Source: Defluviitaleaceae bacterium (GTDB taxonomy: Bacteria > Bacillota > Clostridia > Lachnospirales > WQUN01). Taken from it: a stretch of 41,065 bases of DNA. The notes under the pieces are model-generated. The model searched no databases. It had not been told where the DNA came from and saw only the letters and a program-made list of their open reading frames with translations. Within the stretch, counting starts at the first letter, position 1; each line of letters begins with the position of its first letter. Location: assembly GCA_009785605.1 (NCBI GenBank), contig WQVY01000018.1, positions 1 to 41,065 on the forward strand, in the 5' to 3' direction. Positions 13,879-19,303 of this stretch are shown piece after piece. The position numbers were made by a program, and so were the translations under genes.

Positions 13879-14526
13879 ATGAAATTTAAACTATTAACAA
13901 AAAATTACCTGTCGTACATGATATTGTTTACCATCGCAACTGCAATGGCAATAACCCTAACCTCATGTAGCAATGACGCAGATGACAATGTTCGCACTAT
14001 AGACATAGTAGTAGCACCCGACACAAATAACGAAAACAACTACCAAGAAGAAATAGACGATAACACACAAACTCCAACAACTGCATATATAAACATACAA
14101 ATTGCCGACGCAGAAAGCGCACCAAATTTTGATTTATACTATTCTATTGACTTCAGAGACGCATATACTACTTACTGGAACAGCGACTTAGATTGGCTTA
14201 GCTTTAACCAGCCGCTGGCCATTTGGGCAGACGAAACTCTGGCAGATTTTCAGCTTATAGGCGTTTATCTAGACTACCGCGACGACGGTGCACTTTTAGC
14301 CACCGCCACCCATTCTTACTACACAATCCCGCTGCTGGATACGCCGCTAGTCATAGAGTGGTTTTTTACTGCTGGGCTGTTTCCCAATAACGGCATATCT
14401 TTTGTAGACTCCAACGGCACACGGCGTTTTTTTGCCATACAAGCGGCATATGGCCATGAGGACAGTATTCACCGTTTGTTAGAGTTTGAAGACGGCGGCG
14501 TACTATTCCCGCCATGGGAAGAATAA
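13879..14526 (+). CDS. hypothetical lipoprotein
   Basis: I do not recognise a family in this 215-residue protein. The N-terminus is a lipoprotein signal: a hydrophobic segment followed by LTSC with the lipidated cysteine at C30. An acidic, Asn/Thr-rich linker runs to about residue 65. The rest is a compact domain rich in aromatic residues (YYSIDFRDAYTTYW, WLSFNQPLAIWADE) with no visible catalytic motif. It should be anchored on the outer face of the membrane. AAGGAG lies 13 bp upstream of the ATG, rather far. It follows prfA by 51 bp and converges on the metzincin-like gene 16 bp away. Confidence 0.75.
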   Translation: MKFKLLTKNYLSYMILFTIATAMAITLTSCSNDADDNVRTIDIVVAPDTNNENNYQEEIDDNTQTPTTAYINIQIADAESAPNFDLYYSIDFRDAYTTYWNSDLDWLSFNQPLAIWADETLADFQLIGVYLDYRDDGALLATATHSYYTIPLLDTPLVIEWFFTAGLFPNNGISFVDSNGTRRFFAIQAAYGHEDSIHRLLEFEDGGVLFPPWEE

Positions 14527-14542
14527 AACATACGATTAATGA

Positions 14543-15754
14543 TTACCATCCAAGGCGGGGGTTATTCCGCCTTCTATTACATAGATAATTAAAAATATCG
14601 GATTGGCATGCCGCACACCAGCGGTTGTGTATTGTATGGTGTCTAGAAATATCCATCACACATCCAAAGTTGGTGCAATCTTGTGCGCCCAATATATGTG
14701 ATATTTCATGAACAACCGCCCGCCGCAGCATTGCTGGGGCCAGCTGTGTTGTGACAATCATGTCGCCTAAGTGCATGTTTGTGGTGCCTTCTAACCCCCT
14801 AACCGGGCGTGCAAGCCCAGCAATTCTTCCTTCGTTGAGGGGGATGTCCACAATCCTAAAAGTAATTGTTGCGTGACTGCTTGGGTTTACATCTAGTATA
14901 TCTGAAGCAGAGTTACCGGCCTGGTTGAGTGCAGGTTCGTAGCGGGTTGCGCTTTGCGGTGCTAAGTCTACACCAAACCTGGTTTGAAACAGGTGCTTTA
15001 TTTCGCCTATGATTATTTCAGCTTGGTTGCGTGCGTCTGATGTGTCGCGGTTTACCATAAGTTCGTAATATATTGTTATGTCTAAGGGTGTACCCCACCT
15101 TGCCCAGTATGTTGTGTTGGCGCTTGGGACAGTTGTAAATGCCGTAAGCCTAGAGCCGCCAGTGGCCTCGGGGGTGTTAAACCAGCCAAGAAAGACATAT
15201 CCAGCTTTGGTGGGTGGTTGCGGCAGCGCTCTCATTTGTGTGTTTGCCCCCCTAGTTACTGACCCTATAGCAGATGTCCCACCGTTGGCATCCAGCGACA
15301 GCACTACAGCAGGGGCCCACATGGCATAAAAATAATAAAGCGATGCGTCCCCAGTAAAATGAAATACCTGCCGTGGCTGAAACACATGGTTTCCGTTTCT
15401 CCAACCAACGAATACATAGCCGTCTTTAGCCATAGTGCCGGGGCCCCTAAGGGTAGCTGTCCCGGAGGTGTTTATGTTGCCAGGCCTTGGTGGCGTACCT
15501 GCGGTGCTGTGAATGCACTTATAAATAAAGTTGTAAGTCTTGCCTGTGGGTTTGTTGTTTATAGATAGTGCAAACTGGTAATGAGGTAATAAAATAGCGC
15601 CATATATCGGCGCTTGTAAATTTACATATACAAGTTGATCTGATTCGGCATTTGCTGTGCCGTAGATACCCATGGTGCTATAGATGCTTGTTATGCCAAG
15701 CACTAGCCCTACTGCTATTAGTAGCTTCATAAGTTTATTGTTTTTGGTTTTCAT
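14543..15754 (-). CDS. secreted InlB-repeat protein with archaemetzincin-like protease motif
   Basis: A 403-residue exported protein; the signal peptide ends near TANA (about residue 36). Two Listeria-Bacteroides (InlB B-type) repeats follow, seen as YVFVGWRNG and YVFLGWFNTPEATGG with a closing TTYWARWG. The last 180 residues carry the zinc site HEISHILGAQD (H349, E350, H353, D359). It continues as Cx4CxM and a later CxxC, the order found in archaemetzincins (peptidase M54), except that the third ligand position is Asp and the gap to CxxC is shorter (12 rather than 17). It should be an extracellular metalloprotease, but activity is inferred. The ATG at 15754 is chosen over a GTG at 15763 because GAGGTG is 6 bp before it. 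Confidence 0.8.
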   Translation of the reverse strand: MKTKNNKLMKLLIAVGLVLGITSIYSTMGIYGTANAESDQLVYVNLQAPIYGAILLPHYQFALSINNKPTGKTYNFIYKCIHSTAGTPPRPGNINTSGTATLRGPGTMAKDGYVFVGWRNGNHVFQPRQVFHFTGDASLYYFYAMWAPAVVLSLDANGGTSAIGSVTRGANTQMRALPQPPTKAGYVFLGWFNTPEATGGSRLTAFTTVPSANTTYWARWGTPLDITIYYELMVNRDTSDARNQAEIIIGEIKHLFQTRFGVDLAPQSATRYEPALNQAGNSASDILDVNPSSHATITFRIVDIPLNEGRIAGLARPVRGLEGTTNMHLGDMIVTTQLAPAMLRRAVVHEISHILGAQDCTNFGCVMDISRHHTIHNRWCAACQSDIFNYLCNRRRNNPRLGW

Positions 15755-15784: not shown

Positions 15785-15813
15785 ATTATAGCGCAAAGTT
15801 CTGCGAAGGTTAA
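15785..15813 (-). promoter_or_regulatory. putative promoter of metzincin-like gene
   Basis: On the minus strand TTAACC (15808-15813) and a perfect TATAAT (15785-15790) are 17 bp apart and about 30 bp upstream of the start. The promoter spacer is occupied by the left arm of the inverted repeat at 15792-15828. Confidence 0.55.
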
Positions 15814-15983: not shown

Positions 15984-18362
15984 ATGAATACAGCGATAAA
16001 AATCACAGGTGCGCGAATACACAATCTAAAAAACATCGACATAGAGATACCAAAAGGTAAGCTAACCGTTATCACAGGCGTATCTGGCAGCGGTAAGTCC
16101 AGCCTTGCCTTTGACACACTTTATGAAGAAGGCAAACGTCGTTATTTGATGTTCTCTAACACGCAGTTTATGGTTGATAATGTCCCCACATTTGAAAGCA
16201 TATCCGGGCTTTCCCCTACGGTTGCGGTAGAACAAAGGATTACAAGGCAGTCTAATCCACGCTCTACCGTTGGGACTCGTACAAAAATAAGTTCTATGTT
16301 TGCCGCGCTATTTGCAACATACGGTAGTCGTGCCCCTGAATATGATGACGGCGAGCCTTTGTCTATGGAAATGTTCCAAAAAAATTCCCCCAAAGGGATG
16401 TGTGTACGCTGCTTGGGTACGGGTAAAATCTACATTGTTGACGAAGATGACTTGTTCCATGACAAAACAAGGACACTTGCAAATTTATTTGGCAACGAAG
16501 GTAAAGAGGGGAAAACCGCCCATTGGGGAGTGCGCATCCAACAATATTGCAAACACGTTGGCATTTCACCGCAACAGACGATTGAATCATTAAGCGAAGA
16601 TGAGTTTAACCAATTCAAATATGGTGGCACGGGTTATAGACATATGCCAGACGGTGTTATTTATTGGGTCATTAATTTTTATAAATGGAGCAAAAAAAGG
16701 AAGCATGGGTATTGGGGCGCACAATTGACGTGTGTACATCATGTCGATTGCCCAAAGTGCGGCGGCTCGGGACTGGGCGAGCAAGCAGCACATACCACAA
16801 TTAACGGAAAAACCATCACATATCTCGAATCCATGTATATTACAGATTTATGCGAGTTTTTGAAGGAAGACAAGCTACACGGGACTAAACTACTTGAAGA
16901 AATCTTATTAAAACTCGAGTGCCTGGTAGATGTAGGACTGCATCACCTAGCGTTATCTCGTCCTATCCCCACACTTTCGGGTGGCGAGATACAGCGTCTT
17001 TTCCTTGCGAGTTATATTATTGCAGAGATGGATTCTATTATTTTTATTTTTGATGAGCCGACAATCGGGTTGCACGAAGTGGAAAAGCAAAAGTTGATTG
17101 ATATTGTCCAAAACTTGATAAAGCGTGGCAATACGGTAGTAGCAGTAGAACATGATATTAATTTTATGCAAGCCGCGGATTATATTATTGACCTTGGCCC
17201 ACGCGCCGGGGAGTATGGCGGTGAGCGAGTTTTCCAAGGCAGTTTTCAAGACTTTATTAAAACAGAAAATTCATTGACCGCACCCTACTTATCTGGCAAG
17301 TCGCTGCTGCCTGTAAAGGCATCATACAAGCCGATAAACAAGTCAAAAATCCTGCGATTAGAAAATTGCACCATTCACAATTTACAAAATGTGTCCTTTG
17401 ACATACCACTGGGTTTGCTTGTGGGCGTTGCTGGTGTTTCTGGTAGCGGCAAGTCTAGTCTTATAACAGACACACTTGTCCCCAAATTAAAAGAAGTACT
17501 GAATAATATAGTCATAGACGAGTTTGGCTATGACAGCGAAGCGGAAGAAACTGTTATTTTGCCCGAAGTAATAATATCCGGGTATGAGCACATAAAAAAA
17601 TGTTTGATTATCGACCAAAAACCCATTGGCCGCACTCGCACATCATGTCCAGCAACATATACCAAGATTTTTGATAAAGTACGCAAAATGTTTGCAGACT
17701 CCCCCGAAGCAATATCGCAAGGGTTTAATGCCGGTATGTTTTCTGTAAACGGTGATGGCAACTGCCCTAAGTGCAAAGGCGACGGTGTAATCCATTACCA
17801 TGTTGGGTTTGGCAATTTTATTCATGTAGACTGCGAAAACTGCTACGGTACTGGCTACAGGCCCGAATCATTGACTGTCGTGGTAGACGGCAAAAATATC
17901 AGGGATATCCTTAACATGAGCATATCAACAGCGATGGAATACTTCAAAGATAAAAACAAAGCAAGCTATCGCATGCTTCAAACCCTTGACCGGGTGGGCC
18001 TTGGTTATATGTCGCTTGGGCAGAAAACACCTACAATATCGGGCGGCGAAGCACAGCGGATCAAATTAGCAAAGGAGCTAGGCAAGTCTGGCAGTGGCAA
18101 AGACAATGTATATATTTTAGACGAGCCAACTACAGGACTTTCATTTTCTGATAGCGAAAGACTTATCCAACTAATGCAGGAGCTCGTAGACAACGGCAAC
18201 ACCGTAATAGTAACAGAGCATGACCCCGCTATTCTTGCAAACTGTGATTATATTATAGAAATGGGGCCAGGCGGCGGAAGCGACGGCGGGTATGTACTTG
18301 CTACTGGGACTCCTGAAAAGCTAAAGAAAAATAAAAAATCCATAATAGGGCGGTTTTTGTAA
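15984..18362 (+). CDS. short UvrA-like ABC ATPase
   Basis: A 792-residue paralogue of the excinuclease subunit UvrA with two ABC ATPase halves. Walker A GVSGSGKSS occurs at 32-40 and again at 484-492. The ABC signatures LSGGEIQR (about 331) and ISGGEAQR (about 685), the Walker B segments FIFDEPT and YILDEPT, and the third zinc module (CPKCKGDG to CENCYGTG) are intact. It is about 150 residues shorter than housekeeping UvrA: the first zinc module is missing and the UvrB-binding insertion is reduced, so it may not load UvrB. Such short UvrA relatives are often near antibiotic clusters or linked to drug tolerance. GAGGGAG precedes the ATG. Its stop overlaps the next start as TAATG. Confidence 0.9.
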   Translation: MNTAIKITGARIHNLKNIDIEIPKGKLTVITGVSGSGKSSLAFDTLYEEGKRRYLMFSNTQFMVDNVPTFESISGLSPTVAVEQRITRQSNPRSTVGTRTKISSMFAALFATYGSRAPEYDDGEPLSMEMFQKNSPKGMCVRCLGTGKIYIVDEDDLFHDKTRTLANLFGNEGKEGKTAHWGVRIQQYCKHVGISPQQTIESLSEDEFNQFKYGGTGYRHMPDGVIYWVINFYKWSKKRKHGYWGAQLTCVHHVDCPKCGGSGLGEQAAHTTINGKTITYLESMYITDLCEFLKEDKLHGTKLLEEILLKLECLVDVGLHHLALSRPIPTLSGGEIQRLFLASYIIAEMDSIIFIFDEPTIGLHEVEKQKLIDIVQNLIKRGNTVVAVEHDINFMQAADYIIDLGPRAGEYGGERVFQGSFQDFIKTENSLTAPYLSGKSLLPVKASYKPINKSKILRLENCTIHNLQNVSFDIPLGLLVGVAGVSGSGKSSLITDTLVPKLKEVLNNIVIDEFGYDSEAEETVILPEVIISGYEHIKKCLIIDQKPIGRTRTSCPATYTKIFDKVRKMFADSPEAISQGFNAGMFSVNGDGNCPKCKGDGVIHYHVGFGNFIHVDCENCYGTGYRPESLTVVVDGKNIRDILNMSISTAMEYFKDKNKASYRMLQTLDRVGLGYMSLGQKTPTISGGEAQRIKLAKELGKSGSGKDNVYILDEPTTGLSFSDSERLIQLMQELVDNGNTVIVTEHDPAILANCDYIIEMGPGGGSDGGYVLATGTPEKLKKNKKSIIGRFL

Positions 18363-19303
18363 TGAGTGCAGTCAATCACAAATTTTTGAGCCAGCTTGAC
18401 GATTATATTAAAGTCAAGCGCTATAGGTTAGTAAATGCGGTTGTGGTTTACGAAAACGATGCTCTTGTTTTTGAGCGTTTTTATAATAAATTTAATGAAA
18501 ACTCTGTTAACCACCTCTGCTCTACATGGAAAAGCATTTTATCCATCACGCTTGGGATTTGTCTGGACAAAGGGATAATCAAGGACATAAATGAACCCAT
18601 AAGCCACTATCTTCCGCAGTTTGCTAAGAATATCGAAACACGGCACAGGCTTATAACAATCCGCCATTTGTTAACTATGTCGTCGGGGATACATTTCATT
18701 GGCGGTGTGCATTATCATTGCCCAATGTTAACGCAAATGCGGCGGTCCCAAAATTGGCTGGCCCATATTGCAGATGTACAAATGACTGCAATGCCGGGCA
18801 CGAATTTTGTATACAAGGAATGGGATGTAATCTTGCTTTCTGCAATAATTGGGAAGGCTTGCGGTGGGTTGGCTTGGGATATTGTGTTGGAGTACTTATA
18901 CAAGCCACTGGGTATAACCGGTGAAAAATGGTTGGTTCAAAATAGTGGAACATTGAACTATAACACTGATGTTGAAAATAAAATGCCCGAAGATGGCGGC
19001 GACAAAATGACTGCAAAAAACATGGCGAAAATAGGGCGGTTGATGTTGAACGGTGGAGTATGGGACGGGCAGAGGGTGGTTTCGGAATCATACATAAACG
19101 ATTCAACCGCGCCGTCACAAGCGGATAGGGGATATGGATATTTGTGGTGGCTTTCTAATAAAGGTTATCACGCACGGGGATTTGGAGGGCAAGAAATTAA
19201 TATATACCCAGATAAAAATGTAGTAGCGGTTGTACAAGCAACCGTCACGCCTTCAAGCAAATTTTATTCCGATATTTGCGAAAATGTCATATATGTAAAG
19301 TGA
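18362..19303 (+). CDS. serine hydrolase, class C beta-lactamase fold
   Basis: A 313-residue protein of the beta-lactamase/transpeptidase-like superfamily. The nucleophile motif is S54-T-W-K57 (LCSTWKSILS). PGTNFVYKEWDVILLSAI gives the Tyr motif with Y151, but the third position is Glu where class C enzymes have Asn. The C-terminal HARGFGGQEI segment stands for the KTG box. No signal peptide or membrane segment is visible, so it is probably cytoplasmic, unlike true beta-lactamases; an esterase or peptidase is more likely. The start overlaps the UvrA-like stop (TAATG) with no separate strong ribosome binding site, so translation is probably coupled. A bidirectional terminator follows. Confidence 0.85.
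   Translation: MSAVNHKFLSQLDDYIKVKRYRLVNAVVVYENDALVFERFYNKFNENSVNHLCSTWKSILSITLGICLDKGIIKDINEPISHYLPQFAKNIETRHRLITIRHLLTMSSGIHFIGGVHYHCPMLTQMRRSQNWLAHIADVQMTAMPGTNFVYKEWDVILLSAIIGKACGGLAWDIVLEYLYKPLGITGEKWLVQNSGTLNYNTDVENKMPEDGGDKMTAKNMAKIGRLMLNGGVWDGQRVVSESYINDSTAPSQADRGYGYLWWLSNKGYHARGFGGQEINIYPDKNVVAVVQATVTPSSKFYSDICENVIYVK

Follow-up and report, generated by a model that had tools for sequence, protein, structure and literature searches.

The archaemetzincins (family M54), represented by the structures of AfAmzA (3ZVS) and MkAmzA (2X7M), are metzincins with the motif order HExxHxxGx2[ligand]Cx4CxM...CxxC, in which a cysteine directly follows the third zinc ligand, a histidine, and the CxxC, separated from the methionine by 17 residues, either precedes the C-terminal helix or lies at its beginning. 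AfAmzA superposes well on the adamalysins (PMC3427221), secreted enzymes of family M12B such as the snake venom metalloproteinases, in which four similarly placed cysteines pair into two disulfides (PMC3427221). The third ligand is an aspartate in snapalysin (M7), a secreted enzyme with the sequence HExxHxxGxxD, and in IgAse, a secreted igalysin (M64) of the gut Gram-positive bacterium Thomasclavelia ramosa (PMC12237041). The structural zinc of IgAse is bound by a glutamate, the cysteine that opens the Met-turn and both cysteines of a CxxC within the C-terminal helix (PMC12237041), so this enzyme is a precedent for an aspartate ligand and a structural cysteine zinc site existing outside the cell.

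The first-pass annotation of the DNA considered here took the known archaemetzincins to be cytoplasmic, which was too general. A Bernardetia protein (WP_338815796.1; plasmid-borne locus L048:269-1273, annotated as an archaemetzincin) scored 43.5 bits against the PF07998 cut-off of 24.4 and, read by eye, carries a lipoprotein signal. An extracellular archaemetzincin would thus not by itself be new. Like the protein described below, it is bacterial, exported and has an M54-type cysteine quartet, but it comes from the Bacteroidota, is a true M54 member by the cut-off, has a histidine ligand and has no detected InlB repeats.

The present locus lies in the window, the whole 41,065-nucleotide stretch that was analysed, from a Defluviitaleaceae genome (Table 1). 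The encoded protein is probably a metzincin-type zinc metallopeptidase that is exported, belongs to a family of its own, holds a structural zinc in a Cys4 site and digests peptides in the termite gut. The signal peptide and repeats (from the sequence), the motif and its conservation, the predicted fold and the closest profiles were observed, whereas activity, zinc in the cysteine site, substrate and the habitat of this genome are inferred.

Table 1. Features of the metzincin locus, with positions in the window
Feature	Position	Strand	Basis
Gene for the predicted secreted metzincin, 403 aa	14543..15754	(-)	ORF, ATG start
Signal peptide, residues 1-36, predicted cleavage between ANA and E (36/37)	15647..15754	(-)	read by eye from translation
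InlB-type (Listeria-Bacteroides) repeat 1, residues 110-148	15311..15427	(-)	TIGR02543
InlB-type (Listeria-Bacteroides) repeat 2, residues 153-220	15095..15298	(-)	PF09479
Predicted metzincin catalytic domain, residues 222-403	14546..15091	(-)	AlphaFold2 model and PDB matches
Catalytic zinc motif HEISHILGAQD, residues 349-359, Asp359 the putative third ligand	14678..14710	(-)	sequence, conserved in relatives
C360-x4-C365-V-M367, quartet cysteines 1-2 and putative Met-turn Met	14654..14677	(-)	sequence, relatives
C380-A-A-C383, start of C-terminal helix, quartet cysteines 3-4	14606..14617	(-)	sequence, model
Promoter-like site TTAACC-17-TATAAT, 10/12 match, upstream of the metzincin gene	15785..15813	(-)	consensus match only

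GAGGTG stands ahead of the start codon, the ATG at 15754, and a GTG lies in frame three codons upstream of it. Sites of the TTAACC-17-TATAAT type were seen five times against a chance expectation of 3.6, so the upstream site is weak evidence for a promoter. The gene is flanked by prfA and a small lipoprotein gene on one side and by a short uvrA on the other. The putative lipoprotein (13879-14526, TSC lipobox) is convergent with the metzincin gene and had no family match above cut-off, while the UvrA-like protein (15984-18362) has 792 residues against the 924 positions of the UvrA model and is followed by a beta-lactamase-like serine hydrolase (18362-19303, read from the translation). Elsewhere in the window, the best NCBIfam model for a thymidylate synthase-like protein (288-1076) was TIGR03283, that of the methanogen enzymes, with a match of 5.9e-36 that did not reach the cut-off. 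A relative of the metzincin, L031, adjoins rnhB- and mazF-like genes, as read from their translations, and no operon partners shared between its locus and the window locus were seen. No match was obtained when genome contigs, plasmids and viral contigs were scanned with the single metzincin sequence. An alignment scan of the viral contigs was likewise negative, so there was no sign of phage origin.

The signal peptide, clear by eye, has a lysine-rich n-region followed by a hydrophobic core and the cleavage site, and the protein is very probably exported. The repeats were matched by PF09479 in two stretches (E 7.3e-12) and also by TIGR02543; in other contigs of the same genome (C32, C9, C87, C52, C60 and C56) at least six more long open frames, several of more than 800 residues, match this part of the protein. 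A cysteine-switch propeptide acting through Cys80 was considered and rejected, since Cys80 is not conserved in the relative L010. A full-length structure prediction made from two sequences had a pLDDT of 33.9 and was unusable for the arrangement of repeats and catalytic domain.

The motif comprises H349, E350, H353, G356, D359, C360, C365, M367, C380 and C383, a gap of 12 residues separating M367 from C380, and one further cysteine, C392, is located near the end of the protein. The chance expectation of the full motif is about 2e-11 per 403-residue protein of the same composition and 3e-7 over the six-frame genome. The first-pass annotation had described the signal peptide, the two Listeria-Bacteroides repeats, the M54 order of the motif, the aspartate at the third ligand position and the 12-residue gap, and each of these was found in the translation. 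HEISHILGAQD conforms to the HExxHxxGxx(H/D) zinc motif of clan MA(M), and the C-x4-C-x-M follows the third ligand directly, as in archaemetzincins, with the CxxC likewise opening the C-terminal helix of a predicted metzincin fold. The window protein differs from the archaemetzincins, however, in having aspartate rather than histidine, 12 rather than 17 residues before the CxxC, a signal peptide and InlB repeats.

It resembles IgAse as a predicted secreted metzincin with an aspartate ligand and a putative structural zinc under the Met-turn, but IgAse has an extra residue before the glycine (HExxHxxxGxxD), whereas the spacing of HEISHILG is normal, as well as glutamate instead of cysteine as the fourth ligand of its structural zinc and a 313-residue domain. 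The igalysin profile PF09471 matched neither the window genome (E<=0.001) nor, in a Pfam scan, the protein itself (E<=10). Snapalysin shares the HExxHxxGxxD sequence, but the M7 profile gave no match to the window protein in the Pfam scan.

When profiles of the metzincin families were searched, as the first-pass annotation had proposed, those of M54 came first. The best match to the catalytic domain was the archaemetzincin model NF033823 (2.4e-6), at 27.6 bits against a cut-off of 145, and PF07998 scored 20.1 of the required 24.4 bits (6.7e-4). In a comparison of a family profile built from 10 relatives with the PDB, 3zvs was the first match (9.8e-5), aligned from the active-site helix through the CxxC, and a snake venom metalloproteinase the second (8e-4). 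Alignment with hhalign to four M54 sequences gave 96.1% (44 columns) and 97.2% (70 columns), in C-terminal columns only, the latter match reaching two strands before the active-site helix, as compared with 54% and 82% when a small set of bacterial Reprolysin_5 sequences served as the control; with just 3-4 rows in the comparison profiles, this contrast is no more than indicative. The M54 profile itself reached 92.7% against the Reprolysin_5 control, so short metzincin cores match one another easily.

The profile matches, the histidine ligand of two core relatives (L012 and L016) and the exported M54 protein of Bernardetia would suit a true but divergent M54 member, whose gene entered the Clostridia and gained a signal peptide and repeats while its N-terminal half and third ligand diverged. 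This history is nevertheless unlikely, since all of the scores were below cut-off, the similarity covered the last 45-70 residues with none over the N-terminal half, PF07998 had no match in the 249 genomes searched from the phylum, and the adamalysins ranked first structurally. In addition, the FVFGxA strand of M54 was absent from the alignment of the relatives (A2), while FVFG was invariant in the M54 set A4, which comprises the C-terminal two thirds of M54 only. The term archaemetzincin-like is apt for the closest profile match, which runs through the CxxC, and for a quartet that behaves as a unit, but it does not extend to membership in M54, given the sub-threshold scores and the aspartate ligand. 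The protein is best filed in a small metzincin family of its own, M54-like in its C-terminal part and cysteine site, and this family is apparently undescribed.

The structure prediction of the C-terminal domain, also proposed at the outset, gave an AlphaFold2 model (12 sequences) with a pLDDT of 87.5 and a pTM of 0.85. The elements occur in metzincin order (model numbering, to which 219 is added to obtain the residue number in the whole protein): strand 7-15, helix 20-41, strands 43-47, 77-83, 94-97 and 112-116, the active-site helix 121-135 and the C-terminal helix 162-178. The sheet, backing helix, active-site helix and C-terminal helix of the metzincin fold are thus all present in the model, and the domain can be assigned as a metzincin with good confidence on this basis. 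Foldseek found adamalysins at 2.2e-7 and the archaemetzincins 3zvs and 2x7m at 1.1e-6 and 1.7e-6. The top VIA-align match was the adamalysin-type TM-1 (Z 17.4, rmsd 2.7 over 170 residues), and the best 50 matches were all M12B-type or ADAM/ADAMTS proteins (Z 15.3-17.4); archaemetzincins were not among these 50, with which a close match to them remains compatible.

The M12B enzymes are therefore the closest in overall predicted fold, and they share with the window protein secretion and a C-I-M or similar sequence at the expected place of the Met-turn. Moreover, Reprolysin_5 was matched weakly by all 10 members, so that the protein might be taken for an adamalysin-like (M12B/reprolysin) secreted protease with two disulfides, its likeness to M54 being a convergence around the Met-turn. 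This interpretation is distinctly improbable. The Reprolysin_5 score of the window domain was 16.1 of 27 bits, below cut-off, the profile-profile match was weaker than that to M54, and the M12B third ligand is histidine whereas Asp359 occupies this position here. Since AfAmzA itself superposes on the adamalysins, a high adamalysin Z score does not separate M54 from them.

The cysteines provide a further distinction. All four positions after HEISH are cysteine, or histidine at the last, in every core member. The window protein and L010, which keep the four, lack the five or six additional cysteines that precede HEISH in other full-length members, so the quartet stands alone as a unit. The last cysteine is replaced by histidine in L032 (WCEIH) and L022 (WCITH), in place of WCxxC, and in the remote relative L040 a histidine directly follows the third ligand, where the first cysteine would be (GAIHH...CIM...WCDDC). 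Cysteine and histidine are commonly exchanged as zinc ligands, while such a change would break a disulfide. The substitutions, few as they are and with L022 an 83-residue open frame, thus indirectly favour a candidate metal site over the disulfides expected of an adamalysin. Two other remote relatives, L039 and L047 (G399), have HExxHxxGAPDHY and a later CxxC, with CIM also in L047, and possibly belong to a wider clostridial group of Asp-metzincins. Reprolysin_5 proteins of another Bacillota family (L051, L052 and L053) have CxxxxCLM...CADH with no obvious His or Asp as third ligand.

HEISH, G356, A357, both cysteines of C..C-x-M and W379-C380 were invariant in the 10 aligned rows, and the methionine of the putative Met-turn was kept in nine, L015 having C-A-V instead of C-V-M. 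The third ligand was aspartate in eight of 11 core sequences, histidine in L012 and L016 and cysteine in L013. The tree of 12 rows had no strongly supported branch, so the order of the Asp/His changes cannot be read from it. The L013 protein (HEISHNLGARCDRC), from the same genus as the window genome, may have an unusual ligand or be inactive, and some members of the family may accordingly be inactive or bind metal differently. That the family as a whole is a degenerate or non-proteolytic metzincin serving as a binding module, as L013 and the inactivity of crystallised AfAmzA forms on the substrates tried (PMC3427221) might suggest, is very improbable in view of the invariant HEISH and glycine in all core members and a third ligand that is aspartate or histidine in 10 of 11.

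The recognisable domain was found in 5 of 38 genomes of the same GTDB family. In a scan of named genomes seven loci were found, of which one belongs to an Oscillospiraceae MAG and the others to Defluviitaleaceae MAGs, and the relatives, about 10 in number, come mostly from termite-gut Defluviitaleaceae MAGs. The codes Emb289, Lab288 and Th196 denote guts of Embiratermes neotenicus, Labiotermes labralis and Termes hospes (PMC7024585). The motif region is common to L010 and L031 and to L011 and L033, among other pairs, which ties the relatives to the termite-gut MAGs. The window genome shares its genus with two genomes that carry the domain, and one genome, G019, has four copies. Searches of class and phylum samples with the family profile gave at most isolated remote relatives, which suggests a narrow family.

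The accessory modules vary. InlB repeats occur in L010 and L013, and dockerins in L011, L029, L012, L015 and L016. L016 also has RCC1 and a cohesin that passes the Pfam cut-off, and L015 has a weak cohesin match. The dockerins of these five proteins are type I. The combination of dockerins and cohesins with metzincin domains hints at cellulosome-like complexes that include proteases.

In the proposed mechanism of the exported Cys4 metallopeptidase, the signal peptide would send the protein out of the cell, where the two InlB-type repeats would serve to anchor or space it. His349, His353 and Asp359 would bind the catalytic zinc and Glu350 would serve as general base, as the motif indicates, and the C-terminal domain would cut peptide bonds. 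Cys360, Cys365, Cys380 and Cys383 would hold a second, structural zinc below the active site, as in the archaemetzincins, in a site similar to the Glu-Cys3 site of IgAse. Because the catalytic motif is intact and the protein carries a secretion signal, a digestive endopeptidase is the simplest role, and the proteins or peptides digested would be those of the termite gut, the home of the nearest relatives and presumably of the window organism.

The Defluviitaleaceae of these termites came for the most part from the P1 compartment (PMC7024585). A passage of PMC8784593 that cites Ji and Brune (2005) states that soil-feeding termites break down peptides bound to humus and that this proteolysis takes place in an extremely alkaline milieu. 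A likely, though inferred, role of the window protein is to digest peptides outside the cell in the alkaline gut of termites that feed on soil and humus.

A broader proposal, quite possible but more tentative, is that termite-gut Clostridia possess a hitherto undescribed metzincin family that forms a bridge between the archaemetzincins and the secreted metzincins. It would combine an extracellular location and a full Cys4 zinc site with switching of the third ligand among Asp, His and perhaps Cys and with surface modules that can be exchanged (InlB repeats, dockerins, cohesin-like domains), and would be adapted to the alkaline, humus-rich hindgut. Since the archaemetzincins are poorly understood and little is known of their substrates, a secreted relative, which should meet real extracellular substrates, would be open to test. 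The Asp, His and Cys third ligands and the CxxC or CxxH second sites constitute a natural series for the evolution of metzincin zinc sites. If active, the enzyme would be a candidate for the alkali-stable proteolysis that gives soil-feeding termites nitrogen from humus.
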